Assembly (NCBI RefSeq): GCF_014131695.1
Contig: NZ_CP036346.1
Coordinates: forward strand, 2,728,001-2,792,000
Origin: Thomasclavelia ramosa DSM 1402
GTDB taxonomy: Bacteria; Bacillota_I; Bacilli_A; Erysipelotrichales; Coprobacillaceae
Direction: 5' to 3'
Length of the DNA stretch: 64,000 nucleotides
The notes beneath the pieces are model-generated. The model had not been told where the DNA came from and did not search any database. It worked only from the letters and a program-made list of their open reading frames with translations. Position numbers and translations under genes: made by a program. This document shows positions 4,756-41,457 of this stretch, piece by piece. The number at the start of each line of letters is the position of its first letter. Within the stretch, counting starts at the first letter, position 1.

Positions 4756-7700
4756 CTATTTTAGTTTAGTAATATCTACTAAAGAAGTATCCCCTTTATG
4801 ACGTTTTTCTAAACTAGTAATCAATGCTTGAGCAGTATCTAATGAAGTAAAGATTGGAATTCCTGCTTCTACAGCAAATCTTCTAATTAAGAAACCATCT
4901 TTTAAGTTATCATTGCGAGTGGGAATATCAATGATTAAATCAACAGTATCTGTTAACATTAAATCAAACAATGTGTTACTTTTAGCACTAATGCGATTCA
5001 CTAAACTAACTGGTACATCATTTTCTTTTAAGAAATTATAAGTTCCTTCGGTTGCATATAAATCATAACCAAACATATAATATTGTTTTGCAATTGGTAA
5101 AAATTCATCTTTTGCAGAATCTTTAATCGTACAAATAATATTCTTTTTCTTTGGTAAATTGATTCCTGAACCAATAAATGCTTTATAAATTGCCTCATCA
5201 TAATCAGTTGAAATTCCAAGCACTTCTCCTGTTGATTTCATTTCTGGACCAAGACTAATCTCAGCTCCCTTAATTTTTTCAAAAGAGAAAACCGGCATTT
5301 TAATCGCAATTGTTTCTTTTTCTGGTGCTAAGCCATATTCATATCCCTGTTCTTTAATTGTTTTTCCCATAATAACATGAGTTGCCACATCTACCACCGG
5401 AATATCTGTTACTTTAGAAATATATGGAATTGTTCTACTTGAACGAGGATTTACTTCAATTACATATACTTGGTCTTCATATACAATAAATTGAATATTA
5501 ATTAAACCGATGACATTTAAAGCTTTAGCTAAACGACCTGTGTATTCAACAATCGTATCTTTAATATGCTGTTTGATCTTTTGAGTTGGATAAACTGATA
5601 TACTATCACCTGAATGGACTCCCGCACGTTCAACATGTTCCATAATTCCCGGAATCAGTATTCCATTTTCATCACAAATAGCATCAACTTCTACTTCTTT
5701 ACCAGCTAAATATTTATCAATTAAAATTGGGTGTTCTTGATATTGACGATTAATGATTTTCATAAATTTCTTTACATCACCATCATTTAAACAGATCTCC
5801 ATTCCTGCTCCCCCTAAAACATATGAAGGACGAACTAAAACTGGATATTTTAATCGATTAGCAACTTCTAAAGCCTCCTCAATTGTAAAGACTGTTGAAC
5901 CACGAGGACGATCAATTTCACATTTTTCTAAAATCTCATCAAATCTTTCACGGTCTTCAGCTGCATCAACATCGTCAGCTGATGTTCCTAAAATTTTAAC
6001 CCCCATCTCCATTAATGCCTTTGTTAGTTTGATTGCAGTTTGACCACCAAATTGAACAATTGCTCCATCAGGATGTTCGATATTAACAATATTCTCAACA
6101 TCCTCTGGTGTTAATGGTTCAAAATATAAGCGATCTGCAATATCAAAGTCAGTACTTACTGTTTCAGGATTATTATTTACAATAATTGTATCATAACCAG
6201 CTTCTTTTAAAGCCCAAACGCAATGAACTGAGCAATAATCAAATTCAATTCCTTGTCCAATTCTGATTGGTCCTGAACCTAAAACCATTATTTTTTTCTT
6301 ATCATCAGCTGGATTTACTTCATTTACTCCACCATAGACTGAATAATAATATGGAGTTGTTGCATCAAATTCAGCCGCACATGTATCAACCACTTTATAC
6401 ACTGCGTTAATTTTATTTTCTTGGCACATATTTTTTACTTCATCACTAGTTTTACCTGTTAACTTAGCAATTACTTGATTTGGGAATTCTAAACGTTTAG
6501 CTTTTTTCAATAACTCTCCACTTAATTCTTTATTTTGTAATTCCTTTTCTACTTCTACTAAATGTTTGATTTTATCGATAAACCATAAATCAATTTTTGT
6601 GATATCATGAATTTCTTTTTCACTAATTCCTTGGCGTAATGCTTCTGCTACCGCAAAAATTCTTTGATCGTCAACATCTTTTAATTTCTTTTGGAGAAAT
6701 TCAACATCTTTTCCATCAAGTTCATCTAGATGCAAATAGTAAAGATTTTGCTCCAGTGAACGTAATGCTTTCATTAGCGCACCTTCAAAATTATTGCAAA
6801 TGCTCATAACTTCTCCAGTTGCTTTCATTTGAGTCCCTAATTCCCTTGAAGCATCAACAAATTTATCAAATGGCCATTTAGGAATTTTACATACGACATA
6901 ATCTAATGTTGGTTCATATGAAGCATAAGTTTTCCCTGTTACTGCATTGATGATTTCATCTAATGTGTACCCTAAAGCAATCTTTGCTGCTAGTTTTGCA
7001 ATTGGATAACCAGTAGCTTTACTAGCTAAAGCTGAAGAACGACTAACTCGTGGATTTACTTCAATTACACAGTATTCAAAACTATCGGGATTTAGCGCAT
7101 ATTGAACATTACACCCACCTTGAATATCTAATGCTGTAATAATATTTAAAGCAGAGGTTCTTAACATTTGATATTCTTTATCTGATAAAGTTTGGCTTGG
7201 CGCTACAACAATACTGTCACCAGTATGAACTCCTACAGGATCTAAATTTTCCATGTTGCATACAGTGATGCAGTTTCCAGCACCATCACGCATTACTTCA
7301 TACTCAATTTCTTTCCATCCGGCAATACACCTTTCAATTAAACATTGACTAACTCGTGATAACCTTAATCCATTTGAACAGATATCATGTAATTCTGTTT
7401 CATCATAAGCGATTCCGCCTCCCGTTCCACCTAAAGTATAAGCAGGACGTACTACAACTGGATAACCAATCTTTTTAGCAAACTCTAAAGCATCATCAAC
7501 ATGATTAACAACTAATGAGGCTGCACATGGTTCATTAATATTTTCCATTAGGGTTTTAAACTCTAAGCGATCTTCGGCTAATTTAATCGTATTAGTTGAA
7601 GTCCCAATCGTTTGAACATTATGTTCTTCTAAAAAACCTTCATCAGCTAATGCCATCGCAATATTCAAAGCATTTTGACCACCCAGGGTTGGCAAAATAC

Positions 7701-7953
7701 TGTCTGGTTGTTCTTTAATTATTAAACTTTTAACAACCGGTACGGTTAAGGGCTCAATATAAACCTTATCAGCAATATCCTTATCAGTCATGATTGTTGC
7801 AGGGTTAGAGTTGATTAAAACTACTTCAATCCCTTCTTCTTTTAATGCCCGACAAGCTTGAGTTCCAGCATAATCAAATTCTGCTGCTTGACCAATAATA
7901 ATTGGTCCCGAACCAATTACTAATACTTTTTTTATTCTACTATCTTTTGGCAT
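4756..7953 (-). CDS. carB: Carbamoyl-phosphate synthase large subunit, Bacillota-type copy
   Basis: A 1065-residue large subunit that makes carbamoyl phosphate from ammonia (supplied by CarA), bicarbonate and two ATP, for pyrimidine and arginine synthesis. It shows the duplicated carboxyphosphate and carbamate synthetase halves (VLVIGSGPIIIGQAAEFDY near the start, VLGSGPIRIGQGIEFDY near residue 555), two ATP-grasp domains and a C-terminal MGS-like allosteric domain. It follows carA by one base, with its ribosome site (GGAGGG) inside the end of carA, so translation is coupled. The allosteric domain (EGTYNFLKENDVPV, then ISAKSNTLFDLM) differs markedly from that of the second carB at 9.4-12.6 kb. 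Confidence 0.97.
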   Translation of the reverse strand: MPKDSRIKKVLVIGSGPIIIGQAAEFDYAGTQACRALKEEGIEVVLINSNPATIMTDKDIADKVYIEPLTVPVVKSLIIKEQPDSILPTLGGQNALNIAMALADEGFLEEHNVQTIGTSTNTIKLAEDRLEFKTLMENINEPCAASLVVNHVDDALEFAKKIGYPVVVRPAYTLGGTGGGIAYDETELHDICSNGLRLSRVSQCLIERCIAGWKEIEYEVMRDGAGNCITVCNMENLDPVGVHTGDSIVVAPSQTLSDKEYQMLRTSALNIITALDIQGGCNVQYALNPDSFEYCVIEVNPRVSRSSALASKATGYPIAKLAAKIALGYTLDEIINAVTGKTYASYEPTLDYVVCKIPKWPFDKFVDASRELGTQMKATGEVMSICNNFEGALMKALRSLEQNLYYLHLDELDGKDVEFLQKKLKDVDDQRIFAVAEALRQGISEKEIHDITKIDLWFIDKIKHLVEVEKELQNKELSGELLKKAKRLEFPNQVIAKLTGKTSDEVKNMCQENKINAVYKVVDTCAAEFDATTPYYYSVYGGVNEVNPADDKKKIMVLGSGPIRIGQGIEFDYCSVHCVWALKEAGYDTIIVNNNPETVSTDFDIADRLYFEPLTPEDVENIVNIEHPDGAIVQFGGQTAIKLTKALMEMGVKILGTSADDVDAAEDRERFDEILEKCEIDRPRGSTVFTIEEALEVANRLKYPVLVRPSYVLGGAGMEICLNDGDVKKFMKIINRQYQEHPILIDKYLAGKEVEVDAICDENGILIPGIMEHVERAGVHSGDSISVYPTQKIKQHIKDTIVEYTGRLAKALNVIGLINIQFIVYEDQVYVIEVNPRSSRTIPYISKVTDIPVVDVATHVIMGKTIKEQGYEYGLAPEKETIAIKMPVFSFEKIKGAEISLGPEMKSTGEVLGISTDYDEAIYKAFIGSGINLPKKKNIICTIKDSAKDEFLPIAKQYYMFGYDLYATEGTYNFLKENDVPVSLVNRISAKSNTLFDLMLTDTVDLIIDIPTRNDNLKDGFLIRRFAVEAGIPIFTSLDTAQALITSLEKRHKGDTSLVDITKLK

Positions 7954-9048: not shown

Positions 9049-9078
9049 AAAAAAACATATCAATATAACTGATATGTT
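9049..9078 (-). terminator. Leader terminator (attenuator) of carA-carB
   Basis: A nine-base-pair hairpin, TGATATGTT (9070-9078) with AACATATCA (9054-9062), 7-base loop, then seven T on the minus strand. It lies between the promoter and carA, 21 bases before the carA start, and its first arm overlaps the stop codon of the leader peptide. The stem is identical to that in front of the second carB. Confidence 0.85.
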
Positions 9079-9155
9079 TAATAACAATAAAAATATAAAA
9101 ATGAGTTCATAATATCAAATTTTTCACTTACTAATTCTTTAAAAAACACCAACAT
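9078..9155 (-). CDS. carA leader peptide, 25 residues
   Basis: A short frame that starts at ATG 9155, preceded by AAAGGA at nine bases (an in-frame ATG nine bases further up is too close to that site). It reads MLVFFKELVSEKFDIMNSFL and then YFYCY. The last seven codons contain 16 T in 21 bases. The TAA stop at 9078-9080 overlaps the first arm of the attenuator, so a ribosome reaching the stop would block hairpin formation. This is the layout of the E. coli pyrBI leader (PyrL); UTP sensing is inferred. Confidence 0.65.
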   Translation of the reverse strand: MLVFFKELVSEKFDIMNSFLYFYCY

Positions 9156-9183
9156 ATGCCTCATTCCTTTCTTATTCTTGTAT

Positions 9184-9212
9184 AGTATAGTAGAAATCAT
9201 TTGAATATTCAA
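9184..9212 (-). promoter_or_regulatory. carA-carB promoter
   Basis: On the minus strand TTGAAT (9207-9212), a 17-base spacer and TATACT (9184-9189). The hexamers and spacing are identical to those of the promoter at 12780-12808. The -10 box ends 28 bases before the leader-peptide start. Confidence 0.75.
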
Positions 9213-9383: not shown

Positions 9384-12300
9384 TTATTTAATTGCTAAAT
9401 GATACTCTTGTAAAGATTTAACTTCATGACTACCATGAATTTTCATTTCCATAATTCCTTCTAATGATGCTTTAGCAGCAGCAATATTAGTCATATATGG
9501 AATTCTCATTTTAATTGCAGCTTTACGAATATAACTATCATCATGAGCACTTTGTTTACCATGAGGTGTATTAATGATCATTGCTAATTCACCATTAGTT
9601 AAAGCATCACTAATATTTGGACGACCTTCATGAATTTTTTTGATTTTTTCTACTGGAATACCACTTTCTTTGATCAAGTTATAAGTATTCCCTGTTGCTA
9701 CAATAGTAAATCCAGCATCATAATATCCTTGTGCAAGCTCAACAACTTCTGGTTTGTCTAAGTCACTAACACTGATCAAAACTTTTCCTTCAGTTGGTAA
9801 AATTGTTTTCGCCCCTTCTTCAGCTTTATATAAAGCTGCTCCATATGAACTGGCAATTCCTAATACCTCTCCAGTTGAACGCATTTCAGGTCCTAAAACA
9901 GGATCTACTTCCGGGAACATATTGAATGGGAAAACTGCTTGTTTAACTCCAATATGAGGAATTTTCTTTTCTGTTAAAGTTGGTACTGGTGAAGGACGCC
10001 CAGTCAATTCACGAGTAACAATATCTGTCGCAATTTTTACCATATTAATATTACATACCTTTGAAACTAGTGGTACTGTTCTTGAAGCTCTTGGATTGGC
10101 TTCTAATACATATACTTTATCATCAGCAATTGCATATTGCATATTCATTAAACCACGAACATTCATTTCTTTAGCAATTTTCTTTGTATATTCTTTAATT
10201 GTTTCTAAATGACGGATAGGAATATGTTTAGAGGGTAAGATACATGCTGAATCACCTGAGTGGATACCAGCTAATTCGATATGTTCCATAACCGCAGGAA
10301 CAAAAACAGTTTCACCGTCACTGATTGCATCAGCTTCACATTCCATAGCATTATTTAAGAAACGGTCGATTAAGATTGGGCGATCAGGAGTTACCCCAAC
10401 AGCTGCTTTCATATATTGTTCAAGACTTTCATCATCATAAACAACTTCCATTCCACGACCACCTAAAACATAAGAAGGTCTTACCATTAATGGATAGCCG
10501 ATTCTTTTAGCAATTTCTAATGCTTCTTCAACATTTACTGCCATTCCAGATTCAGGCATTGGAATTTCTAATTTTTCCATCATTGCATTAAATAAGTCAC
10601 GATCTTCTGCCATATCAATAGTTTCTGGTGTTGTTCCTAAAATATTCACACCATTTTTCTTTAATTGAGCAGCTAAGTTAAGTGGTGTCTGTCCACCAAA
10701 TTGTGCAATTACACCTACTGGTTTTTCTTTTTCATGAATACTTAAAACATCTTCTAATGTTAGTGGTTCAAAGTATAATTTATCAGATGTATCATAGTCA
10801 GTTGATACAGTTTCAGGGTTACAGTTAACAATAATTGTTTCAAATCCTAATTTCTTTAATGCTAAAGCAGCATGAACACAGCAATAGTCAAATTCAATTC
10901 CTTGTCCAATACGATTAGGTCCACCACCTAAAATCATAATTTTCTTTTTATCGTGATGAATGTCGCTATTATCTTCAGCATTATATGTTGAATAATAATA
11001 AGCACTATCCTTTGTTCCACTTACGTGTACTGGTTCCCATGCTTGATTAATATTATTAGCTAATCTTTCTTCTCTAATTACATTTTCCTCAACATTCAAA
11101 ATTTGACTTAAATATTTATCTGAGAATCCATCTTGTTTTGCTTGTTTTAGTACTTCAGCCGGTAATTCTTTACCTTCGTATGATTTTATATTTTCTTCTT
11201 CTTCAACTAATTCTTTCATTTGTTCAATGAAGTAATGTTTGATTTGTGTTAGTTCAAATAATTCTTCAACTGTTGCTCCCTTTCTTAACGCTTCATACAT
11301 AATGAATTGTCTTTCGCTAGTTGGAACAGTTAACATATGTAATAATTCTTCTTTAGATAACTTATTGAAGTTTTTAGCATACCCTAAGCCATAACGTCCA
11401 ATTTCCAATGAACGAATTGCTTTTTGGAAAGCTTCTTTATAAGTTTTGCCGATACTCATAACTTCCCCAACAGCTTTCATTTGAGTACCAAGTTTATCTT
11501 CAGCCCCTTTGAATTTTTCAAATGCCCAACGTGCAAACTTGATTACAACATAATCACCATCAGGTACATATTTATCTAAAGTTCCATATTTACCACAAGG
11601 AATATCTTCCATAGTCAAACCAGCCGCTAACATTGCTGAAACTAAAGCAATTGGGAATCCTGTTGCTTTTGATGCTAAAGCTGATGAACGAGATGTTCTT
11701 GGATTAATTTCAATAACAACGATTCGATCAGTTTCTGGATCATGAGCAAATTGAACATTTGTCCCTCCAATTACACCAATTGATTCAACAATTCTAAATG
11801 CTTGGTCTTTTAAACGATCTTGCACTTCTTGGCTAATTGTTAACATTGGAGCGCTACAGAATGAATCTCCAGTATGAACTCCTAATGGATCAATATTTTC
11901 AATGAAACATACTGTGATCATGTTGTTGTTAGCATCACGAACAACTTCAACTTCTAATTCTTCCCAACCTAAAATAGATTCTTCGATTAAACATTGACCA
12001 ACTAAACTAGCTTGTAACCCCCGAGATACAACTGTTTTTAATTCTTCAACGTTATATACCAGTCCACCACCGGCACCACCCATAGTATAAGCAGGGCGCA
12101 CAACTACTGGATAACCTAACCGTTCAGCAATTGCTAAGGCTTCTTCAACAGTTGTTGAAACCTCACTACGAGCCATTTCAATGCCTAATTTATCCATTTC
12201 TTTTTTAAATTCTAAACGGTCTTCACCACGTTCAATCGCATCAACTTGAACTCCTAATACTTGAACGTTATATTTTTCTAAAACACCAGCCTCATTTAAT

Positions 12301-12602
12301 TCAGAACATAAGTTTAATGCTGATTGCCCACCTAAGTTAGGAAGTAACGCATCTGGTCTTTCTTTTTCAATGATCTGTGTTAATCGTTCTACATTTAATG
12401 GTTCAATATAAGTAACATCAGCAGTTTCCGGATCTGTCATGATCGTTGCAGGATTTGAGTTCACTAACACGATCTTATAACCTAACCCTCTTAAAGCTTT
12501 ACACGCTTGAGTTCCTGAATAATCAAATTCACAAGCTTGACCAATAATAATTGGACCTGAACCAATTACTAATACTGTATTAATATCTTCTCTTTTTGGC
12601 AT
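9384..12602 (-). CDS. carB: Carbamoyl-phosphate synthase large subunit, second and divergent copy
   Basis: A complete 1072-residue large subunit with both synthetase halves, two ATP-grasp domains and the MGS-like allosteric domain. It is clearly not a recent copy of the gene at 4.8-8.0 kb: it begins MPKREDINTVLVIGSGPIII, has GGGPNRIGQGIEFDYCCVHA at the second-half start and LQEYHLAIK at the end, all closer to what I recall of Gram-negative CarB, and its allosteric domain carries an EGRPNISD stretch like the EGRPHIQD of E. coli CarB. It is transcribed alone from its own promoter and attenuator, and presumably uses the single nearby CarA. It starts at 12602 after GGAGGA. Confidence 0.95.
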   Translation of the reverse strand: MPKREDINTVLVIGSGPIIIGQACEFDYSGTQACKALRGLGYKIVLVNSNPATIMTDPETADVTYIEPLNVERLTQIIEKERPDALLPNLGGQSALNLCSELNEAGVLEKYNVQVLGVQVDAIERGEDRLEFKKEMDKLGIEMARSEVSTTVEEALAIAERLGYPVVVRPAYTMGGAGGGLVYNVEELKTVVSRGLQASLVGQCLIEESILGWEELEVEVVRDANNNMITVCFIENIDPLGVHTGDSFCSAPMLTISQEVQDRLKDQAFRIVESIGVIGGTNVQFAHDPETDRIVVIEINPRTSRSSALASKATGFPIALVSAMLAAGLTMEDIPCGKYGTLDKYVPDGDYVVIKFARWAFEKFKGAEDKLGTQMKAVGEVMSIGKTYKEAFQKAIRSLEIGRYGLGYAKNFNKLSKEELLHMLTVPTSERQFIMYEALRKGATVEELFELTQIKHYFIEQMKELVEEEENIKSYEGKELPAEVLKQAKQDGFSDKYLSQILNVEENVIREERLANNINQAWEPVHVSGTKDSAYYYSTYNAEDNSDIHHDKKKIMILGGGPNRIGQGIEFDYCCVHAALALKKLGFETIIVNCNPETVSTDYDTSDKLYFEPLTLEDVLSIHEKEKPVGVIAQFGGQTPLNLAAQLKKNGVNILGTTPETIDMAEDRDLFNAMMEKLEIPMPESGMAVNVEEALEIAKRIGYPLMVRPSYVLGGRGMEVVYDDESLEQYMKAAVGVTPDRPILIDRFLNNAMECEADAISDGETVFVPAVMEHIELAGIHSGDSACILPSKHIPIRHLETIKEYTKKIAKEMNVRGLMNMQYAIADDKVYVLEANPRASRTVPLVSKVCNINMVKIATDIVTRELTGRPSPVPTLTEKKIPHIGVKQAVFPFNMFPEVDPVLGPEMRSTGEVLGIASSYGAALYKAEEGAKTILPTEGKVLISVSDLDKPEVVELAQGYYDAGFTIVATGNTYNLIKESGIPVEKIKKIHEGRPNISDALTNGELAMIINTPHGKQSAHDDSYIRKAAIKMRIPYMTNIAAAKASLEGIMEMKIHGSHEVKSLQEYHLAIK

Positions 12603-12636: not shown

Positions 12637-12665
12637 AAAAAAACATATCAAGTAAATGATATGTT
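12637..12665 (-). terminator. Leader terminator (attenuator) of the second carB
   Basis: TGATATGTT (12657-12665) pairs with AACATATCA (12642-12650) across a 6-base loop and is followed by seven T on the minus strand. It ends 34 bases before carB and has the same stem sequence as the carA attenuator. Confidence 0.85.
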
Positions 12666-12750
12666 AATTATAAAAAATAGAAATATAAAAGAATTGAAAA
12701 TGATCAGTAATAGTCTTAACAATGCGTTCACCAAATACTTTAAACATCAT
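12664..12750 (-). CDS. carB leader peptide, 28 residues
   Basis: A short frame from ATG 12750, with AAGGAG five bases upstream, ending at TAA 12664-12666, where it overlaps the attenuator's first arm. The second half reads HFQFFYISIFYN; its last 11 codons hold 22 T in 33 bases. Position, U-richness, and stop-to-hairpin overlap match the carA leader peptide, although the peptide sequences differ, which argues that the architecture and not the amino acid sequence is conserved. Confidence 0.7.
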   Translation of the reverse strand: MMFKVFGERIVKTITDHFQFFYISIFYN

Positions 12751-12779: not shown

Positions 12780-12808
12780 AGTATACAAAACTAAATGACA
12801 CTATTCAA
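12780..12808 (-). promoter_or_regulatory. Promoter of the second carB
   Basis: TTGAAT (12803-12808), a 17-base spacer and TATACT (12780-12785) on the minus strand, 29 bases before the leader-peptide start. The rest of the gap to the divergent DUF1003 gene (12809-12929) shows only an AT-rich region and that gene's ribosome site. Confidence 0.75.
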
Positions 12809-30087: not shown

Positions 30088-33000
30088 TTAACTCTTCTTT
30101 CTTAATCTAACCACAGCTAAAAGTGCAACTAATGATATCATTGCAAATTCAAAGAGCATTGTTTCATCACCTGTTTTAGCATTTTTCTTTGTTTTGTCTG
30201 ATACCTCAGTCCCTGGCTGTTCCTCAACCTTCGGTTCCTCTTTTTGACTAGCTTTAACAGCTTCGATTTTTGTTAATAGAGCATCACTCATTTTATTAAC
30301 ATCTTCACTGCTAACATCATTAGCAATCAGTGCAACTGCCTGACTTAATAATTCTTCTAATTCCTTGACTAACTCAATATCATATTTATCTTTGTTAGCA
30401 AGAACTTGTTTTGCCAATTCAATTTGGAGTAATAAATTATCTTTATTAACAACTTGCTTTAATTCATTGAAAGCTCTTAGTAATTCATCGTAGGCATTTT
30501 GAATAGCACCTTCATTAGCGTCAAGATCCTGATTAACTGTGACGGCCCTTTCATAACCATTTTTAAACGTTTTCCATGATTCTTCAGTATAATCTTCTTC
30601 TTTTAAATCTTTAACCTGTTCAATCAATTTATCTAAATCCTTGCGCTCTACTATTTCTAAAAGTCCTTCAATCGCTTCATTGATTTCTTGTTTTGCATTT
30701 TGTAAAACTATAAGTTCCTTACTGTTATCATCTATTAGTTTTCTTCCTGCTTCATAAGCATCTTGCAATACTTTCAAAGTAGCTGGTCGAAGATTTACTG
30801 CTTCTTTATCCAAAATCTCTTTTGCAACTTCAACGCTTACCTTTAATTCCCGGTAACTAATCAGAATGGCTTTTTCATTTGCAAGATTTGTTAGATTGGC
30901 TTGAACATCTTTTTCAACTACTTCTCCTGCTCCTAGTGCAACTAAGGCATTTGCTTGATCAAGATATCCTTTCATAACCTTAAACATTTCTGCAGAATAA
31001 TCAGTTTCCATCTTAGTAACTTCATCAATCAGTACAACCAGTTCATTAAATGATGATTCCAATGCCCTAAATGTTAAATTATCTAATGCTGTTTGCAGTT
31101 CAGATACCATCTTATCAACATCGCTTTGAGTAATATCCATTCTATCAGCCATTGCTTCAGCTGCTTCTTTGTTTTGTATGAAACTTTGCCAGCTTGAAAC
31201 TGTACTATTTGCTTCACTGTACCCTTCTGCCAGTTTACTCTCCGCCACTTCAAGCACTGTTTCTAAAGCACTTTTATCAACTCTTACAACCTGTTTCTTT
31301 AAATTTGTGTATTTTTTAGACAATTCTTCTTTGAACTTAAGCATTTCTTCTTCACTGATACTTTCTTTTCCTACCACTTCATTTTCAAGATTGGTTAAAT
31401 AAGCCGTGAAAGTTTGATAAGTTTCTTCTTTGATTTGACCGTGGAAATTACCCACATTCATTTCACTTAATTTATCTTTAACTTGACTAATTGTTCTAAG
31501 TAAATCATTTTTAGGATTTTCATATACTTCAATTTCATAAATAGAATATCCATACTTAGCGTTATTAGCAGCTTTTGTACCAATTAATTTAATATAACGT
31601 GCTTCAATATCACCTAATCCAGTATGATTATTTTCCTTAGCTACATTACCAGTTACATTTTTGATCGTAAACCAGTCTTTACCGTTAACTGAGCCTTTTA
31701 ATTCATAGTCCACTCCATAAGCATCTTCCCAGGTAATCTTGATTTGATCAACTTTATAAACTTTATTTAAATCTACCTGGATCCACTGATCATGCGTACG
31801 TGCTGACGCCCAGCGTGATTGCTCAGGACCACTAGCACTTTGATTAATGATTCCATCAAATGCTTTATTTGGTGTTTGATAATCAGTATAGCTGCTTGAA
31901 GCTGTTGCTTTTTTATTCAAAGCAACATTTTCATGAATAACATCTATTCCTGTATCATAAAGATTTTTAATTTCTTCATTATTCAATAAACGATTATAAA
32001 CTTTAATATTATCTAATGTTCCTACTAAATTTTGTCCAATCTTTTGTAGTGGTAAATTGATTGAAGCTGAATCATACCACTTATTCCCCGAATTGGTAAG
32101 AATTGGTCCATTGATTGTTGATTTAACTACTCCATCTAGATAAACATTAGTATATTTTTTATCAGAAGTAAAAGCTAATTGATATAATTTTCCCTTTTCA
32201 AGTTCTATATTATGCTCATAATGATAACTATCACGATCGTACATCAGCTTGTATTTACCATCAATTTCTTTTAAATAGATTTTTCTTGTTTGATACTTTG
32301 TATCAATCCACTGATTACATTCTTCTATTGGCATTGTTTCTTCAAATAATACAATATCGCCTGTTTGTGATTCATCGATTTTTAAATCAAAAGCTAAAGT
32401 ATACGGCCATTTCAATGCACTATGCTGCATTTGTAGATTACCATCACCATTTAATTTCAATGCCTGACCTTCATCAGTTGTTTCAACTGTTGCTTTGATT
32501 GCAGTAGCATCATAACCATTTCCAGAATTATCTTTAATGACTAAATTATCCCCTTGTTTTGAAGTATTTTCCATATCAAAGTCATATACTTTTTCTGTTT
32601 TACTGCTAATTTCTTTATCCATCTCAACATTTGGACCAGTACCTAAAGTATTGACCTCAGCTTTAAATTGGTCATATGACTTGTCATTATCTTTACCGTA
32701 CCAAAAGGTTTGAGCATATATTGGTAAGATACTTTGTGTTCTTGCAAAAACATCATAAACAGAAATCCCATTAAAGATTCCTCGGTCATTCCATAATGAA
32801 ATCGAACCCCCAACAATTTTTGGATGTCCTTCAGCAACATCAACTCCAGCGCCCATTTTATCTCTAAATTTTCCAGCACTTAAGTTATTGTACATTTCTT
32901 CTTCTTTCGCAAAATCTGGATAACCATTATTCCCGCCAGGAACAATATAACCATACTTATTAGTTGCGTTAATTAATTTATAATCCTGATTAAATAATGA

Positions 33001-35274
33001 TTTTAAACTGATTGCATAATTTGCCCAAGCATCCATAATTGGATAATCTGGTATTTTTGTTTTATCAGAATCTACACATCCCATAGAAGCCCATGCCATT
33101 GGCGTTTTACCATATTTATTATAAACAAGATCCATTACGTATTGAGTATACTGGGTCATATCTTCCTTGTATGCACTATTGTACTCATCAAGCCCTACAT
33201 TAAATGCATCGGTTACAAAAACCGGATTATCTCCCCCCATATATTCTTCATATAGATCAGCAATAAATTTATACACTGTTTCTTTTTTATCAGAATTTAA
33301 GCGTATATCTAAATGTGTTCCATCAAATCCTAATTCAGAATTATTGTCAATAAACACTGCTGAATGTGCTGGAGTATCGAACTCAGAAACAATTCTAATT
33401 CCATAATCCTCAGCATAATATTGGAAATCACGATACTCACCTTTTGTATAATAACCATCTGTTGCCGTTAATCCTGGAATATCTGACTCCAATCTAAAAC
33501 GCGAATGACCGTTGTATGAAGTATCATTTAAATGTACTTGAATATCTGTGAACTTGTACCAAGATGCATATTTAACAAAATCTTTTAAATACCACATTGG
33601 CATATATTTACGGGCAACATCCAACATGAATTTACGATATTCATATTTAGCATAATCTCGTGCTTCACCTTTATTAATTGTCAGTGCATCCCCACTTGCA
33701 ACTAATGCTTGTAAAACACTGCGTGTTCCAAAGAAAATACCTTGATAAGTTGTTGACTTAATTGTAATACTATCCCCAATTTCTAATGTATATCCCTGAT
33801 CACCAATAGTGGTATCCGCATTTTCTTTAGTTAATAAAATATCTCCTTTTTTTACTGTTGTATTACTAATTTCTAATTCTAATCCAAATAAATCCTTAAT
33901 ATCATCTTTAGTAATTTGAGCTGCTTTATATAAACTTTCATCTTGAACAATAATTCTAGAATTATTAGTTAATTGATAAGTTCCTGTTGCTCCATTCCAT
34001 TCTTGAATCGTTGGAACTGTAGTAGGGACAGGATTACTATCTAAAGCAACTGAATTTTGCCCTGGAATTATAACTGGAATATTTTTCATTTCCTTAGTTG
34101 CATTAGTTCTTTTATCTTTAATAATATAAGTAACTAACACTTCCTTATCTACCAATGGCTTATGAATCATTCCATTATCTTCAACTACAAAGTCAGTATC
34201 ACTACAAAAAATTTCTGCTACAATATTATCATTATCATAATGATATACTGGCATCTTATCCATATTTGAAGTAATTGTTCCGATTGTAAAATCTTTGGCA
34301 ATATCATCAACTGTAAGACTATTATTTACTTCTTCATAAATTTCCATTTCCCAAATAGAAATCGGTTTAGCACTACCAACACCATTACTTGCTGTAGCAT
34401 ATAAACGAACAAACCGAGCTGTAATTGGATCAAAATCAAATTTTTCCCAACTTCCCTTACCATCATCTACATTTACAAATGTTATCCAATTTTTATCAGT
34501 TCCAACATCATTAGAATATTGCAATACATATTTTGTCGCAAAAGCATTTTCCCAAAAAATATGTATTGATGAAAATGTCATTTCTGCTTCTAAATCAACA
34601 TAGATCCATTGGGGACTCTTAGTAATATTTCCACTTGACCAGCGTTCATTATAATCATTACTGTATTTACCATCAAAGGCTCCACCTGGTCCAAGACGAT
34701 CCAAATTAGCTTCATTGCCAGAAGCATATGCTGGTTTATTTAAAGCAATATTAACTGGATCATTACTAGTATCCTTCTTAACTCTTAAAACTTCTAATTC
34801 TTTTAAACCAATCGTACTTTCTCCGCTCTTAGCTTCAATCAGTTCAATTTTCACATAGCGGGCAATTGTATTTTCTTCCATTTCCCATTCTTCATCGCCA
34901 CCAGTACCCTCTTCGTGGAATAGGACTTGTCCATATTTTTGGTCGGTCTTAGCCACATATAGTTTATAACGAAATGCAAAATTACTAGCCCACTTTAATG
35001 TAATTTTTTCAAAACTTTCCTCTTTCCCTAAATCAACTATAATACTTGGGTTTGTACTAATATTACCTACTTCCCATTTAGTATCCATCTTACCATCAAC
35101 TGCATTGCTCCCCTCATTGCCGGCAATAGCACTACTCGCCACAACCACTTTATCCAATGCGATATTTTCATACTCTTGTTCAGCAGCTACATTTGTAATA
35201 AGTTGGTTAAATGTAGTAAATACCATCAAGAGTGATAATAATGAAATAAAACCTTTCCTTAATATCTTTTCCAT
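30088..35274 (-). CDS. Giant wall-anchored GH20 hexosaminidase with CBM32, LamG and FIVAR modules
   Basis: A 1728-residue secreted protein: signal peptide (about 1-31), two CBM32/F5-8C galactose-binding-like domains (about 34-320), a GH20 accessory domain, a GH20 catalytic barrel (about 545-890; catalytic Asp-Glu in NVGLDEY), a LamG-like domain, a third CBM32, several FIVAR helical repeats, then NAKTGDE, a membrane helix and RLRKKS. GH20 enzymes remove terminal beta-GlcNAc or GalNAc, or lacto-N-biose, from glycans; mucin or milk-type glycans are a plausible target. The ATG at 35274 follows AAAGGGAAG; the longer frame overlaps the leader terminator. Controlled by a RAT/terminator and a dyad pair upstream. 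Confidence 0.9.
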   Translation of the reverse strand: MEKILRKGFISLLSLLMVFTTFNQLITNVAAEQEYENIALDKVVVASSAIAGNEGSNAVDGKMDTKWEVGNISTNPSIIVDLGKEESFEKITLKWASNFAFRYKLYVAKTDQKYGQVLFHEEGTGGDEEWEMEENTIARYVKIELIEAKSGESTIGLKELEVLRVKKDTSNDPVNIALNKPAYASGNEANLDRLGPGGAFDGKYSNDYNERWSSGNITKSPQWIYVDLEAEMTFSSIHIFWENAFATKYVLQYSNDVGTDKNWITFVNVDDGKGSWEKFDFDPITARFVRLYATASNGVGSAKPISIWEMEIYEEVNNSLTVDDIAKDFTIGTITSNMDKMPVYHYDNDNIVAEIFCSDTDFVVEDNGMIHKPLVDKEVLVTYIIKDKRTNATKEMKNIPVIIPGQNSVALDSNPVPTTVPTIQEWNGATGTYQLTNNSRIIVQDESLYKAAQITKDDIKDLFGLELEISNTTVKKGDILLTKENADTTIGDQGYTLEIGDSITIKSTTYQGIFFGTRSVLQALVASGDALTINKGEARDYAKYEYRKFMLDVARKYMPMWYLKDFVKYASWYKFTDIQVHLNDTSYNGHSRFRLESDIPGLTATDGYYTKGEYRDFQYYAEDYGIRIVSEFDTPAHSAVFIDNNSELGFDGTHLDIRLNSDKKETVYKFIADLYEEYMGGDNPVFVTDAFNVGLDEYNSAYKEDMTQYTQYVMDLVYNKYGKTPMAWASMGCVDSDKTKIPDYPIMDAWANYAISLKSLFNQDYKLINATNKYGYIVPGGNNGYPDFAKEEEMYNNLSAGKFRDKMGAGVDVAEGHPKIVGGSISLWNDRGIFNGISVYDVFARTQSILPIYAQTFWYGKDNDKSYDQFKAEVNTLGTGPNVEMDKEISSKTEKVYDFDMENTSKQGDNLVIKDNSGNGYDATAIKATVETTDEGQALKLNGDGNLQMQHSALKWPYTLAFDLKIDESQTGDIVLFEETMPIEECNQWIDTKYQTRKIYLKEIDGKYKLMYDRDSYHYEHNIELEKGKLYQLAFTSDKKYTNVYLDGVVKSTINGPILTNSGNKWYDSASINLPLQKIGQNLVGTLDNIKVYNRLLNNEEIKNLYDTGIDVIHENVALNKKATASSSYTDYQTPNKAFDGIINQSASGPEQSRWASARTHDQWIQVDLNKVYKVDQIKITWEDAYGVDYELKGSVNGKDWFTIKNVTGNVAKENNHTGLGDIEARYIKLIGTKAANNAKYGYSIYEIEVYENPKNDLLRTISQVKDKLSEMNVGNFHGQIKEETYQTFTAYLTNLENEVVGKESISEEEMLKFKEELSKKYTNLKKQVVRVDKSALETVLEVAESKLAEGYSEANSTVSSWQSFIQNKEAAEAMADRMDITQSDVDKMVSELQTALDNLTFRALESSFNELVVLIDEVTKMETDYSAEMFKVMKGYLDQANALVALGAGEVVEKDVQANLTNLANEKAILISYRELKVSVEVAKEILDKEAVNLRPATLKVLQDAYEAGRKLIDDNSKELIVLQNAKQEINEAIEGLLEIVERKDLDKLIEQVKDLKEEDYTEESWKTFKNGYERAVTVNQDLDANEGAIQNAYDELLRAFNELKQVVNKDNLLLQIELAKQVLANKDKYDIELVKELEELLSQAVALIANDVSSEDVNKMSDALLTKIEAVKASQKEEPKVEEQPGTEVSDKTKKNAKTGDETMLFEFAMISLVALLAVVRLRKKS

Positions 35275-35361
35275 AATTCTTCCCTTTCTTTGATTAATAA
35301 AAATCTTACTTATTTTCCCTCTGTGCATGTCCCTCCTTTTTTGAAGCCAGATGTTTTTAGT

Positions 35362-35404
35362 AAAAAAAGACAAGACTAAAAAGCATCTCGCTTTTTCGGT
35401 CTTG
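35362..35404 (-). terminator. Leader terminator of the first GH20 gene
   Basis: CAAGAC/GTCTTG plus inner AAAAAGC/GCTTTTT helix with a 5-base loop, then TC and seven T on the minus strand. Its first arm is the 3' end of the RAT element (35398-35404), so the two structures exclude each other. It lies 87 bases before the gene. Confidence 0.88.
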
Positions 35405-35424
35405 CCTACTGAAAGTAACAATCC
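35398..35424 (-). promoter_or_regulatory. BglG/LicT-type ribonucleic antiterminator (RAT)
   Basis: The minus strand reads GGATTGTTACT, then TTC, AGT and AGGCAAGACC with overlap. This matches the bgl/sac RAT consensus at both conserved ends (GGATTGTTACT and AGGCAARACC). A PRD-containing antiterminator protein would bind the folded RAT and prevent the overlapping terminator. The 27 bases are identical to those at 41561-41587. No such protein is encoded in this window. Confidence 0.85.
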
Positions 35425-35450
35425 TTTGCTATATTTTTAATATAGCACTA

Positions 35451-35480
35451 TTTATACATAAAAGAAATGTGTCTATACAA
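35451..35480 (-). promoter_or_regulatory. Candidate promoter of the first GH20 gene
   Basis: Minus-strand TTGTAT (35475-35480), 18-base spacer, TATAAA (35451-35456), between the operator pair and the RAT. Confidence 0.4.
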
Positions 35481-35484
35481 TTAC

Positions 35485-35529
35485 GGTACAATGTTTCGTA
35501 TAAAAGATATAAACATGGCACAATGTTCC
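35485..35529 (-). promoter_or_regulatory. Pair of dyad operator sites (candidate RpiR sites)
   Basis: GGTACAATGTTTC (35485-35497) and GGCACAATGTTCC (35517-35529) share the dyad pattern GGNACAWTGTNYC, centres 32 bases apart (three helical turns), just upstream of the promoter. The same pattern occurs twice before the next GH20 gene. Binding by the RpiR protein at 41.7-42.6 kb is inferred. Confidence 0.6.
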
Positions 35530-35533
35530 ATAT

Positions 35534-35592
35534 AAAAACCCCCTAAAGTGATAGATATCTAGAATTCTGGACACATATCACTTTATAGAGGG
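35534..35592 (-). terminator. Terminator of the EEP-GH20 gene
   Basis: TAAAGTGATA and TATCACTTTA, extended by CCCTC/GGGGG, form a long stem followed by TTTTT on the minus strand, 25 bases after the stop codon. Confidence 0.85.
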
Positions 35593-35616
35593 TCACCACA
35601 AAAATACTGTTTTTAA

Positions 35617-38600
35617 TTAATCAAATTTTTTACGACAAATTAATCCCATTAGAGCTATTCCTAATAATCCTGCATAACCAAATAAATTAACATCATCACC
35701 TGTTTTTACAGATTTATCACTTGTATCAGTTACTGGTTTGTTAGTTGGTGTTTCCGTTTCCTCACCAGGTTTTACTTCTATTGGTTTTAAAGCATCATAA
35801 ACTTGATTTAATGAATCTAACATAGCATCTAATTCCGCCTGAGATACATCTTTACTATCTAATAATTCTTTTGCTGCCTTAATCATTGTTTGAAGTTTAT
35901 TCCATGAATCTTGATTATAATTAGCTTGATCTAGATCTTTTATCGCTTCAGTTATTTTATTGATAACTTTTTCAAGGTCTTTTGAATTACCTAATTCTAG
36001 AAGTTTCATCGCAGCCTCTCGAACTAATGCAACCATTGCATCTACTTGTTCTTGGTTAACATCACTATTATCGACTACCATTGCATTTGCTGCCTGATAT
36101 ACTCCTGCAAATTCTGCCCATGTACTTATTGTATAATCAGCCTCATCGTATTCTTTTAATAATTTCGCTAATTCTTTAGTATTTCCTCGTTTTTCTAAAT
36201 TAATTTCATTAAGAGCAGCTATCGCATTATCTACATCCACTTGATTTAAACTTACATTTTCATAAACAAGCTTAGCAGCATCAACAATTGTTTTCATCGT
36301 TTGCCATGAACTCGTTGTATAATCAGTTTCTTGAAAATTATCATAACTTTCAATAGCTGTTTTTAATTTACTTCGATCCAATTTAACTAAACTACTATCT
36401 AAAGTTTGTAATTGTCCCATTGCTTCATTTACTTTAATATAATCATCAGCATTATCAATTAATCCTTTAATAGCAGTTAATTTTGTATTAAAATCAACAA
36501 AGCTATCCTTTGTGAAATCTTTTTCTTGATATAAACTAACTTTTTGATATAGTTCATTTAATTCGTTTTTTGAATAAATCACACTATCTTCTATTGAGTT
36601 GATTATCGCAGTCACTTCTTTTAATAGCTTGCCAATTTCCTCAGTAGAAATTTCTGTACCGTCTGCAAGTGCTAAATAATCCTCAAATTTTTGTTCAAAT
36701 ACTTCATAATCATCTTTAGCAATATTTCCATTTTTATTACCAGCATCAAATTTTGCTAGCTCAGCTTGACCTTCTTTAACTAATGCTCTTAATCCCTCAT
36801 TAGTACTTTGATATACTTCTAATTCATAAATTGAATATCCCCAATTACGATTTTTAGCATCATGACAAGCAATTCTTACATAACGTGTTTCAACATCACC
36901 TAAGTCTTTATGAGTTATTTCTCCTCCAGTACCATTAGTAATATCTTTAATGTCAAAGAAGTTTACACCATCCAATGAGCCTTGAATCGTGTATTTAGTT
37001 GCATAAGCACCTTCCCAAGAAATAAATACTTTATCAACTTTATAGTTTGCCCCTAAATCTACCGTAAGATCTTGTTCAACTGTTCCATATTCAGTATCGC
37101 CTTCATTAGTTCCTGCACCTGTTGCCCGTTTGCTTGACCAGCGATTAGTTGTAACTTTAGTATTGTCTCCATCAACTGCTAAATTTGGTGTCAAATTAGG
37201 AGTAAGTGGATTTACGGAAGATGCAGTTGCATTTTTGTTTAAAGCTAAATTTTCTAATTGAATATAACCTAATTCATCAGAAATTTCTGTCGCACTAAAG
37301 GTTTTATTATAAATCTTAATGTTATCAACACTACCTTTTGCATTATTTAAGATTTTTTCAACTGGTAAAACAAATGTACTAGAATCTTTACGGTTATTAA
37401 TTGCAGTGCCCATATTAATTCCCGTTGTTATCGCTTTTCCATTAATGTATAAAGTCGTATTCTTTTGATCACAAGTCAAAGCTAAATTTACCCAAGTATC
37501 TTTGGGAAGTTCATAATCAAAAGTAAAGTTATATCCACTACGTGAGTATCCTATTTTTCCAGTTCCATCGATATTAGCATACATAACACCATCATCACCA
37601 CTAAATATTTCGGTATTTTCAGATGTATTGCTGTCTAATTTAATATCCATCATTACTGTATAAGGATAACCAATTGATTTATATGGCAATGCCACATACC
37701 CATCTCCATTTACAGTAGCAATATTATTACCATTAGCTTTTTCAATAATTGCGTTATTCAATGTAGCATTATAATTATTTCCTGAAGTATCTACTGCTTT
37801 TCCATTTTTAATTGTTTCAAAATCAATTGCTGTAATATTTTCTCCTTTTGATTCGACTACCCTTCCCGGATTTGCCCCAGGTACAACACTATTTAATTTA
37901 TTAGCCCGTTCAACAAACTCAGCAGCAGTTTGACCATCCGTCTTTTCTCCATACCAAGTTTTTTCACTAGTAATCATAACTGCATCAATAAAACGATCGT
38001 AAATATCAAACCATGTAAATCCTCCACCATATGAAGTCATATCATTCCATACACAGAATTGACCACCTTTAGTTTGAGGATGAGCAATTGGCATGATTGC
38101 AGTACCTTGTCCGGCATTTCGACTTGGTGAGAAATTATTAACATCGAACTTATCATATAATGAAGCAATATCCAAACGATCTGGATAACCAGCATTAGCT
38201 CCAGGAACAATATATAACCATCCCCCACAAGTATTGATGATATCATAACCGGCATTATAAGTTTCTTTAACATCTGCCCAATATGGTGCCCATAAGTTAA
38301 CCGTAGCATCATTTGATACTGGTGTTGTTCCGTTAAATCCTCGACTACCTAAAGACCCCCATAACCTTGTATCATATCCTTTATCATTAACATAATTAAT
38401 AAAATGATCAGTCCATTTACGCATTTGCTCTGAATATGATTTATCATATTCATCTGTTCCAATATGGAATTTATCACTTTGAATAACAGGATTTGGCCCA
38501 TCTAAATATTCATCCAGAACAGCTTCAATAACATCATAAGAGGATTGTTCTCTAATATCCAACGCCCCTGCTTTAAGCATTTTTACTCCAGGAACATTTC

Positions 38601-41457
38601 TAAAACATTCAGCATGATATGGCGTATCAATTTCCGTAATTACATTGATTCCATAGTTTTTCATGTCAATCTGATATTGACGATACTCCTCTTTAGTGTA
38701 GCTGCCATCAGTAGCTGTAATCATTGGATAAGTATCGCACTCTAATCTAAAAGCTGAATACCCTGTAGCTCCCCAATAATCATTTACATGAACTTGAACT
38801 TCATTAAGTTTATAGTATGCCATATAAATCGTCATTTCTTGTAAATACTCCATTGGAATATAAGTACGAGCTACATCTAGCATACCTGCCCGAACCTCAT
38901 ATTTAGGGTAGTCCCGCGCTAATCCTTTAGCTACATTATTCATCCCATCATTCTGCGAAAACATTTGGGTAATTGAAATACCACCATATAAAATTCCTGT
39001 TTCATAGTTAGATTTAATTTCAATCATATCATCGATGGCAAGCGTATATCCTTCTTTCCCTAAGTTGTCAACACTACCATCTTTTACTAAAACAATATCA
39101 CCACTCTTTTCACCACTAGTAACAATTTCAAGTTCATGTTTGATCATCTCTTTTAAATAAAACTGAATTTGTTTAGCAGTAGCTTCCAAACTGGCATCTT
39201 TAACAACAATTTTTGAATTCTTTGATAATGTGAATTCTCCTTCATTACCTTTCCATTCCCGTAATCCCGGCATTACATTAGGCTTAGCATTAATACTTTC
39301 TTCCTTGTTATAAGCTCCAGGTACAATAAAGTTAATATCGGCTTCACTATAAGCAATATCAGTTTCATCATTCAAGTTTTTAACTTGATATAATACATTA
39401 ATATCCATATCTTCCAATGGCCGAGTAATTGTTCCATCCATTGCTACAACCTGTTTATTATCGCAACCGTATAAACTAATTTCAAAGCCATCAGGTACCG
39501 CTGGTAAAACAATTTTATTACCATTGATTTGTGGCGCTTCCTTATTCAATGACTTTAAAACTTCATCAGCAGTTGTAACTGTATGATCTCTTTCTTTATA
39601 TACTTCAAATTCATAAATACTGCCACTATATTTATTTTTATTAGTATGGGTCCAGCGTTTTAATTGAACATACTTAACATATCTTGCTTTTGTTGCTTCA
39701 ATTTGAATCTCTTTAATTTCACTAGGTCCTCCATCTGGAAGATCAGCAGCTTCATAAACATCTTGATAGTTTACACCGTCAGTAGATACTTGAATTTTAA
39801 ATGCTGGTGGGCATGATTCATAATTGATTACAAATTCAGATACTGTCTTACGACTTCCTAAATCTACTAATAACCATTGATTATCTGCAGTTTTACCAAA
39901 AGATACCCGACTGTCCTTAGAAACCACTCCATCTACTGCCATTGGTGCAGTAAAGCGGCCATCACCTACTTCTAATGATGAAGCGCTAACAGGCCGATTC
40001 AATGCAATATTACTGTAATCTTTGGCATCTGGATCTTGTTCATATACCTCAAATTCATAAATACTGCCACTGTATTGTTTCCCATTACCACTATGTGTCC
40101 AGCGTTTTAATTGGACATATTTAACATATCGTGCTTCAGTAGGATCAATTGAAATCTTTTGAATATTGCTAATTTGCCCCTCTAAATTACTAACCTCATA
40201 AATATCACGGTACACTTTATCTTCACCAGCAACTTGAATCTTGAAAGCAGGTACTTGTGATTCATAATTAATCACAAAATTAGAAATAGTTTCTGTTTTA
40301 CCTAGGTCAACTTCTAACCATTGCTCATCTTTATCTTTAGCCAAAGATACACGACTATCACTAGAAACAATACCATCTACTGCCATTGGTGCAGTCCATC
40401 TTCCATCATTCACCTCTAGTCCTGATACACTAACGTCTTTATTTAGAGCTAAATTAGGATATCTTGTTTTAAGATTATCCTGTGCTGTTTGAATATCTTT
40501 AACAGCCTTATTGATTTGCTCTTGAGTAGCATTTTGATCAAGCAGTTCCCCTGCAACCAATTTTTCATCTAAAGTGTTGTAAGAAGCGTTACTATATTTA
40601 CCTTCATCTAAAGCATTAGCATCGCTAATCACAAGATCTAAATAATCTCTAGAAGCAACTGGTTGATCTAATAACTTAGCATCGGCATAAAATAAATTAT
40701 GATCAGATAAATCTGTTTCAACCATTGTAATATTACTAATTTCTAAATTTCTAGAAGTAATAATATTATCGACTGCACTAGTCTTCATACTTGCATCAGT
40801 ACCATTAAAGGTATCGTACCACTTTCCACCTTTACCATTTGCAATGTTGTAATCTTCTAAAAATGGATAAATTTCATTGTGATTTTGATCTACATTAAAA
40901 TCCCCAAAAGCAACTTTATATTCTGCCGGATCTTGATCCATAGTTGCTTTTAACTCTAATAACTGTTTCGCACGAGCTTCTACTGACTCATATGTCAAAT
41001 GAGTATTATAAACTGCAATAACTTTACCGTTTACTTCAATTTCTCCTTTTTGCCATGCTCGAGCTTCTTTAATTCCCTCACTATTCAAAGCTCCACCATT
41101 TGTATTGATTAATTCTAAGTTTGACAGTAGTGCAACACCATAATCACCACCACCAGTTTCAATTGCTTTTTGAAATGAACTGTAAGCATAATCACCTTGC
41201 TCTACAAACTTCTCTAACATATTGTATGGATTACGACTTGTATTAATATCCACTTCCTGCAATCCTACGATATCAACATTATTTGTCTTCAATAATTCAT
41301 TTAGCTTGGTTATATCAGGTTTTTTATTAGCCGCAATATTAAATGTTGCTAATCTGACATTATCGGTTGCTGCAGTAACTTTCATCATTGGCATAACTTG
41401 CGATATAACTGTTACTGCTGCAACTAAAGAAGCTATAATTCTTTTTGTTCTTCTCAT
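35617..41457 (-). CDS. Giant wall-anchored EEP-phosphoesterase/GH20 fusion protein
   Basis: A 1946-residue secreted protein. After the signal peptide (about 1-30) comes an endonuclease/exonuclease/phosphatase domain (about 33-267) with its catalytic set: TFNIA, GLQEVD, NTHL, GDFN and SDHN. Then a short helical stretch, two CBM32 domains (about 335-620), a GH20 accessory domain, a GH20 barrel (about 865-1190; Asp-Glu in FHIGTDEYD), a LamG-like domain, a third CBM32, about six FIVAR repeats, SVKTGDD, a membrane helix and CRKKFD. It should combine phosphodiester or phosphomonoester cleavage with hexosamine release at the cell surface. The EEP substrate (nucleic acid, sphingomyelin or phospho-glycan) cannot be told. 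The start follows AAAGGGAAA. Confidence 0.9.
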   Translation of the reverse strand: MRRTKRIIASLVAAVTVISQVMPMMKVTAATDNVRLATFNIAANKKPDITKLNELLKTNNVDIVGLQEVDINTSRNPYNMLEKFVEQGDYAYSSFQKAIETGGGDYGVALLSNLELINTNGGALNSEGIKEARAWQKGEIEVNGKVIAVYNTHLTYESVEARAKQLLELKATMDQDPAEYKVAFGDFNVDQNHNEIYPFLEDYNIANGKGGKWYDTFNGTDASMKTSAVDNIITSRNLEISNITMVETDLSDHNLFYADAKLLDQPVASRDYLDLVISDANALDEGKYSNASYNTLDEKLVAGELLDQNATQEQINKAVKDIQTAQDNLKTRYPNLALNKDVSVSGLEVNDGRWTAPMAVDGIVSSDSRVSLAKDKDEQWLEVDLGKTETISNFVINYESQVPAFKIQVAGEDKVYRDIYEVSNLEGQISNIQKISIDPTEARYVKYVQLKRWTHSGNGKQYSGSIYEFEVYEQDPDAKDYSNIALNRPVSASSLEVGDGRFTAPMAVDGVVSKDSRVSFGKTADNQWLLVDLGSRKTVSEFVINYESCPPAFKIQVSTDGVNYQDVYEAADLPDGGPSEIKEIQIEATKARYVKYVQLKRWTHTNKNKYSGSIYEFEVYKERDHTVTTADEVLKSLNKEAPQINGNKIVLPAVPDGFEISLYGCDNKQVVAMDGTITRPLEDMDINVLYQVKNLNDETDIAYSEADINFIVPGAYNKEESINAKPNVMPGLREWKGNEGEFTLSKNSKIVVKDASLEATAKQIQFYLKEMIKHELEIVTSGEKSGDIVLVKDGSVDNLGKEGYTLAIDDMIEIKSNYETGILYGGISITQMFSQNDGMNNVAKGLARDYPKYEVRAGMLDVARTYIPMEYLQEMTIYMAYYKLNEVQVHVNDYWGATGYSAFRLECDTYPMITATDGSYTKEEYRQYQIDMKNYGINVITEIDTPYHAECFRNVPGVKMLKAGALDIREQSSYDVIEAVLDEYLDGPNPVIQSDKFHIGTDEYDKSYSEQMRKWTDHFINYVNDKGYDTRLWGSLGSRGFNGTTPVSNDATVNLWAPYWADVKETYNAGYDIINTCGGWLYIVPGANAGYPDRLDIASLYDKFDVNNFSPSRNAGQGTAIMPIAHPQTKGGQFCVWNDMTSYGGGFTWFDIYDRFIDAVMITSEKTWYGEKTDGQTAAEFVERANKLNSVVPGANPGRVVESKGENITAIDFETIKNGKAVDTSGNNYNATLNNAIIEKANGNNIATVNGDGYVALPYKSIGYPYTVMMDIKLDSNTSENTEIFSGDDGVMYANIDGTGKIGYSRSGYNFTFDYELPKDTWVNLALTCDQKNTTLYINGKAITTGINMGTAINNRKDSSTFVLPVEKILNNAKGSVDNIKIYNKTFSATEISDELGYIQLENLALNKNATASSVNPLTPNLTPNLAVDGDNTKVTTNRWSSKRATGAGTNEGDTEYGTVEQDLTVDLGANYKVDKVFISWEGAYATKYTIQGSLDGVNFFDIKDITNGTGGEITHKDLGDVETRYVRIACHDAKNRNWGYSIYELEVYQSTNEGLRALVKEGQAELAKFDAGNKNGNIAKDDYEVFEQKFEDYLALADGTEISTEEIGKLLKEVTAIINSIEDSVIYSKNELNELYQKVSLYQEKDFTKDSFVDFNTKLTAIKGLIDNADDYIKVNEAMGQLQTLDSSLVKLDRSKLKTAIESYDNFQETDYTTSSWQTMKTIVDAAKLVYENVSLNQVDVDNAIAALNEINLEKRGNTKELAKLLKEYDEADYTISTWAEFAGVYQAANAMVVDNSDVNQEQVDAMVALVREAAMKLLELGNSKDLEKVINKITEAIKDLDQANYNQDSWNKLQTMIKAAKELLDSKDVSQAELDAMLDSLNQVYDALKPIEVKPGEETETPTNKPVTDTSDKSVKTGDDVNLFGYAGLLGIALMGLICRKKFD

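Follow-up and report, generated by a model that had tools for sequence, protein, structure and literature searches.

Leaders before the carbamoyl-phosphate synthase genes of Coprobacillaceae are probable ribosome-mediated transcription attenuators, with UTP as the inferred signal

Introduction

What controls transcription of carA in Thomasclavelia ramosa DSM 1402, where a promoter, a short U-rich reading frame and a terminator lie in front of the gene? The locus is part of a 64,000-nucleotide stretch of DNA that was analysed as a whole (the window); elsewhere in it, at 30088-41457 on the minus strand, are two neighbouring, very long frames (1777 and 1946 codons). An earlier note on this DNA likened the arrangement before carA to that of Escherichia coli pyrBI. 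UTP-sensing leader-peptide attenuation is known from enteric bacteria. In the open-access literature, a limited scope that leaves subscription papers outside, neither a description of this car leader nor a Bacillota case of UTP-sensing leader-peptide attenuation was found.

Results

The carA leader occupies 9212-9049 on the minus strand, between carB1 (12602-9384) and carA (9028-7955), which encodes the carbamoyl-phosphate synthase small subunit (NF009475, 533 bits) and is followed on its 3′ side by carB2, encoding a large subunit (4756-7953, minus strand; profile match). The parts named in the earlier note were found in place. The promoter TTGAAT-N17-TATACT is present on the minus strand (9184-9212, hexamers at 9212-9207 and 9189-9184), and its -10 region, ACTATACTATACAAG, has the same letters in six congeneric genomes. 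The leader peptide frame (9155-9078; 25 codons, MLVFFKELVSEKFDIMNSFLYFYCY) is preceded at 3-10 nt by the Shine-Dalgarno (SD) sequence AAGGA/GAGG, written AAGGAATGAGG, in the SD region GAAAGGAATGAGG (9159-9171), and the count of 16 T in the 21 letters of its final seven codons was borne out. The U-rich tract, the proposed UTP-sensing stretch, extends over 9081-9103. The claimed overlap between the stop codon and the first terminator arm amounts to two A's, as TAA (9080-9078) abuts the hairpin ACATATCAGTTATATTGATATGT, which precedes a T run, and shares these two letters with the extended stem of the intrinsic terminator (AAACATATCAGTTATATTGATATGTTTTTTT, 9049-9079).

Single-sequence scans gave weak support for the promoter, which as a bare consensus match is not significant (8 sites found against 9.0 expected in this A+T-rich DNA), and for the hairpin, which was not picked up by a fixed-rule terminator scan because it has few G-C pairs; the weight of both therefore comes from genome comparison. 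A genus terminator pattern (CATATCA-N4..9-TGATATG-TTTTT) had two matches in the window against none in 100 shuffles, and a search of nine congeneric genomes gave 15 matches, nine before carB1 and six before carA, with none for the reversed control. The whole carA leader folds with z = -2.6, and its best 20-nt window contains 15 U, a value equalled by 0.6% of random window segments. These analyses confirmed the carA leader as real and far outside what chance would give.

A second leader of the same design, absent from the earlier note, lies before the tandem gene carB1 (12808-12637, minus strand). It has a TTGAAT-N17-TATACT promoter with the same hexamers (12780-12808), an SD AAGGAG at 12761-12756, a 28-codon frame (MMFKVFGERIVKTITDHFQFFYISIFYN, 12664-12750) and an intrinsic terminator (ACATATCATTTACTTGATATGTTTTTTT, 12637-12664), and is proposed to control carB1 (9384-12602). 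Both carB genes, which flank one carA, encode full-length large subunits. The nearest named relatives of carB1 are in Thomasclavelia cocleata (96%), Longibaculum, Massilimicrobiota and Beduini. Sequence identity suggests that carB1, though it carries its own copy of the leader, was acquired horizontally, because it is 77-80% identical to many Lachnospiraceae CarB proteins and just 45.8% identical to carB2. No such leader was seen at the inspected loci of Lachnospiraceae carB, the closest outside relative of carB1 (L100, L101, L103, L108 and L142), and the leader is absent from the carB1 homologues in L096 and L098.

Each of the 43 Coprobacillaceae genomes sampled has at least one such leader, before carA, carB1 or both. 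The collection comprised 52 distinct family leaders (25 carA, 27 carB1), and family genomes beyond these were covered by a covariance model and inspection. The family anatomy consists of an SD, a frame of 18-31 codons, a tract of 24-30 nt with 68% U and a terminator, the stop codon lying mostly at the terminator base. An SD-preceded ATG frame ending between -16 and +14 nt from the terminator stem is present in 50 of the 52 leaders, and dinucleotide shuffles reach such a frame end in 15% per leader, with the caveat that the leaders are not independent. The covariance model matched 36 of 295 genomes of the order, all 36 within Coprobacillaceae, and none of 252 further genomes of the order outside the family. 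All leader-model matches that were inspected are at carA or carB, and no leader of this kind was seen in the region before pyrFE. The earlier note had proposed that leader peptides not conserved in relatives would refute its reading; the comparison did not refute it, the layout being kept in 43/43 genomes at carA and/or carB1 and the peptide sequence not.

Two family genomes have the leader with unrelated terminator sequences: in G033 the layout is kept (ACACGTTACC...), and in G038 (L251) the frame passes through the terminator to a stop that overlaps the carA start codon. In G009 (L191) the frame is open through the terminator and in frame into carA. The frames of G009 and G038, in running through the terminator, recall E. 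coli pyrL. No such leader stands before carA in the congeners G001 and G008, where the carB1 leader is present; their carA genes either lost the leader or never had one. In G008 (L009) carA is in an operon after a purF-like gene, and its product is 46% identical to the window CarA; in G001 (L014) carA follows a gene resembling gltD.

The leader peptides vary widely, with no residue common across the family (MVGKRVMDTTIVRTSFSHFLYF, MCKSSGVKLNNLKYLFTISLKHI and MFIVTNKKLDMISNDSLGSLFFKFQILL alongside that of the window carA leader). Constant across the leaders are the open frame, the point at which it ends and a sharply bounded U tract: in 31 representatives, U accounts for 63-69% of positions -30 to -6 from the terminator stem compared with 18-41% further upstream, and maximal U content is near constant among leaders at 13-16 per 20 nt. 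Constancy of frame, end point and tract is expected if the frame brings a ribosome to a place and polymerase reads the tract, and is not expected of an arrest peptide.

A feature missed by the earlier note is that the SD and start region is complementary to the first part of the leader's own U tract in nearly every leader read closely. In the carA leader, the predicted 5′ arm of this SD-sequestering hairpin is the SD region, as supported by pairing, arm swaps and partial-transcript folding, and the predicted anti-SD arm is the start of the tract (the ACTCATTTTTA region, 9096-9106). The paired sequences differ by lineage (AUGAGGC/GUCUCAU, AUGAGAC/GUCUCAU, AGGCUA/UAGCCU, GAGGUC/GGCCUC and AAGCUAU/AUAGCUU). 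An arm-swap test on 31 representatives (<85% alike) was used in place of column counts, as one multi-genus alignment had misplaced the 3′ arm. The summed energy of the native SD:tract duplexes was -452.6 kcal/mol, compared with -365.7 (sd 13.2) when arms were swapped, and none of 20,000 swaps was as low; at the level of sequence comparison, this test showed that SD and U tract coevolve. A few leaders (L173, L181 and L185) pair only weakly, and covariation within one close subset is modest, being reached by 10 of 500 shuffles.

Folding of partial transcripts, with 12 nt assumed to be hidden in the polymerase, gave an SD that is unpaired at 0.70 or more up to the point where polymerase stands 18 nt short of the terminator, and at 0.19 once it is 2 nt short; in this computation the open SD would close only as polymerase approaches the end of the tract. 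The final unpaired value is 0.13 for native leaders, 0.20 for swapped tracts, 0.27 for shuffled tracts and 0.63 for ordinary genes. As modelled, SD closure is in part compositional, because any pyrimidine-rich tract pairs somewhat with an SD, and in significant part specific. A pyrBI-type attenuator would have a pause-favouring hairpin just upstream of the tract; what is seen here is a predicted, coevolving SD:tract hairpin, and pausing itself is inferred.

The earlier note had seen no PyrR-binding consensus at this locus, and its point on PyrR proved stronger than claimed. Nothing over the cut-off for PyrR was found in the nine congeneric genomes, and PyrR is present in 1/43 Coprobacillaceae genomes compared with about 145/252 other genomes of the order; the single family member with PyrR (G026) also has the leader. 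The pyrimidine pathway has not been lost, because pyrB is present in all nine congeners. On this phylogenetic pattern, the simplest reading would be that the family exchanged PyrR for other attenuators. No Rfam family matches the carA leader, even at E <= 1, and on this ground, together with the lack of a PyrR gene over the cut-off, control by PyrR, a riboswitch or a T-box was rejected. A search for RNA elements able to break the terminator, other than the terminator's own arms, found none. An antiterminator from the start-codon region (ATGTT pairing with AACAT), seen by eye in some leaders, was rejected as it is not kept in L072 and L162.

A car-type leader does not account for pyrB, which in this genus has a different, highly conserved attenuator without a leader peptide (L049, about 1430-1490; G000:C1:1164836-1164910; AACTGGGTATAAT..ATATTATTTCCCAATTATACCTCGTTAGAGGTATTTTTT). 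Its first hairpin (GGG/CCC) competes with GGTATAAT/ATTATACC, which itself competes with the terminator. The element was found in 9/9 genomes of the genus and in no other family genome in that search, with two weak matches elsewhere in the order. It has no credible Rfam match and is possibly a new riboswitch-like element.

Discussion

We consider it probable that each leader is a ribosome-mediated transcription attenuator, most likely one that senses UTP by how fast RNA polymerase passes through the U tract. Sequence comparison shows the parts, their spacing, the coevolution of SD and tract and the confinement to car genes in a family mostly without PyrR, and the timing of SD closure to the end of the tract is a computed result. 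UTP as the signal, pausing, leader translation and the sign of regulation are inferred in the absence of expression, UTP-response or ribosome data.

In the proposed mechanism, polymerase would first make the leader SD and start codon, leaving the SD open, and would then enter the U-rich tract of 24-30 nt. With plentiful UTP the tract would be crossed quickly, and its start would emerge and pair with the SD, leaving ribosomes unable to load and the terminator free to form, which would end car transcription. When UTP is low, polymerase would dwell in the tract before the anti-SD arm emerges, allowing a ribosome to load, translate to the stop codon at the terminator base and cover the 5′ arm, with read-through into carA-carB2 or carB1. 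The ribosome is the natural antiterminator because no other RNA element that breaks the terminator was found and the leader frame ends exactly at it. That UTP is the signal is an inference to which the U tract and the pathway point. The possibility that car serves pyrimidines only, arginine synthesis being missing, was ruled out by the presence of argG; as arginine synthesis also draws on carbamoyl phosphate, a further signal is possible. Attenuation by arginine codons was ruled out as well, as 31 leaders contain only nine Arg codons and 23 of the 31 contain none.

The same anatomy could instead sense charged tRNA (Phe, Tyr or Cys) or general translation capacity, in which case slow decoding or loading rather than slow U incorporation would decide the outcome. 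The final ten leader codons are indeed rich in Phe (28%), Ser (16%) and Tyr (11%), and a U-run leader before aroF of Acholeplasma has been read by others as phenylalanine sensing (PMC8632094). U content and amino acids are confounded, because Phe and Tyr codons are U-rich. However, no amino acid is fixed in position and some leaders (e.g. L183 and L092) have only one Phe near the end, while the near-constant quantity is the U maximum; control of carbamoyl-phosphate synthase by Phe or Tyr has no evident logic, and the leaders are at car genes only in the sampled genomes. We regard sensing of this kind as unlikely.

Also improbable, and slightly more so, is a functional stand-in for PyrR in the form of an unidentified RNA-binding protein or small RNA that acts on the SD:tract hairpin or on the terminator, the U tract being merely its binding site. 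The lack of PyrR in 42/43 family genomes would leave room for such a factor, and a protein could plausibly recognise a conserved hairpin, but the hairpin sequence changes freely with only pairing kept, the conserved open frame is left unexplained and, no antiterminator that breaks the terminator having been found, a ribosome is the simplest blocker.

Very little supports a leader peptide that arrests the ribosome on a small molecule such as arginine or ornithine. The fungal CPA1/arg-2 arginine attenuator peptide is a short leader peptide before the carbamoyl-phosphate synthase small subunit, which the present leaders resemble in length (18-31 codons) and in their place before a small-subunit gene, and carB1 leaders of the genus have HFQFFYISIF or close variants in common. 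Against this, the family-wide peptides share no residue, and the conservation of HFQFF is explained at the RNA level because this stretch pairs with the SD. The R/K-X-R/K arrest motif at the C terminus (tlrB type) was not met in the peptide list. Just as improbable is a leader that has no part in metabolic regulation and serves as a passive insulator or for reinitiation. A short leader frame can enhance translation of the gene after it through reinitiation (PMC4833913), but here the stop codon is placed at the terminator, about 50-60 nt ahead of the car start codon, and the terminator is always present.

The preferred reading, attenuation by a ribosome with UTP as the likely signal, has its closest known counterpart in E. 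coli pyrBI, where termination is avoided only when ribosomes translate across pyrL (Roland, Liu and Turnbough 1988, as cited in PMC5021804). The likeness drawn in the earlier note stood in that promoter, short SD-preceded frame, U-rich tract inside the frame, intrinsic terminator and downstream pyrimidine gene are all shared; it did not extend to identity, since here the U tract pairs with the SD and sequesters it, and the stop codon is usually at the terminator base. The controlled genes are carA and carB instead of pyrBI, the sequence is unrelated and the host is a member of the Bacillota. The 44-codon pyrL frame runs through the terminator to just before pyrB, whereas the frames of 18-31 codons usually end at its base, and a separate GC-rich hairpin precedes the tract in E. 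coli where here the hairpin is formed by the SD paired with the tract. In E. coli, computed pairing of the pyrL SD (CGGGAGGA) with the U tract of the same leader (UCUUCCCG) likewise reaches -19.8 kcal/mol, with 66 of 2000 shuffles as good (MG1655 4472380-4472700, L212), and the SD is predicted to become less accessible, from about 0.5 to 0, while the tract is emerging. An SD gate may thus exist in this model of pyrBI too, a result that is merely suggestive because it concerns one species only.

In Bacillus subtilis tlrB (yxjB), a polymerase pause at U residues lets the ribosome initiate before an SD-sequestering hairpin is complete (PMC6851288). This is likewise a Bacillota leader peptide at which a ribosome can block the terminator (PMC6851288), but the signal is tylosin acting through ribosome arrest at an RYR motif, the sequestered SD is that of the downstream gene, and the nine-codon peptide has a conserved C terminus. 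By analogy, the car leaders may combine the pyrBI idea that translation prevents termination with the tlrB idea of a pause before an SD hairpin. PyrR-dependent attenuation in B. subtilis and Lactococcus also involves premature termination before pyrimidine genes in Bacillota, but requires PyrR and its binding loop, and this genus is without PyrR. The carA motif of Polynucleobacter (SRC-12-1) is an RNA element directly upstream of carA (PMC8632094); it is a betaproteobacterial extended hairpin beside the carA ribosome-binding site and a proposed riboswitch, with no leader peptide or U tract described. At E. coli carAB P1, UTP control is exerted by UTP-dependent reiterative transcription (PMC6245113), that is, by U slippage at transcription initiation and not by a leader peptide and terminator.

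What is new here is the complementarity between the leader's own SD and the beginning of the U tract, and the coevolution of the two. The U tract could be sensor and gate in one, as it encodes the anti-SD of its own leader and the time spent in it would be the time for ribosome loading. Only tentatively, at somewhat less than even confidence, we suggest that such a gate belongs to UTP-sensitive attenuation in general, having arisen in Bacillota once PyrR was lost, and that it also exists, so far unnoticed, in E. coli pyrBI. A common gut Bacillota family appears to have evolved UTP-sensing attenuation independently while losing PyrR, on both carbamoyl-phosphate synthase genes, and the coevolving SD:tract pairing adds to such attenuation a kinetic ribosome gate, a step that can be tested and may hold for E. 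coli pyrBI too.
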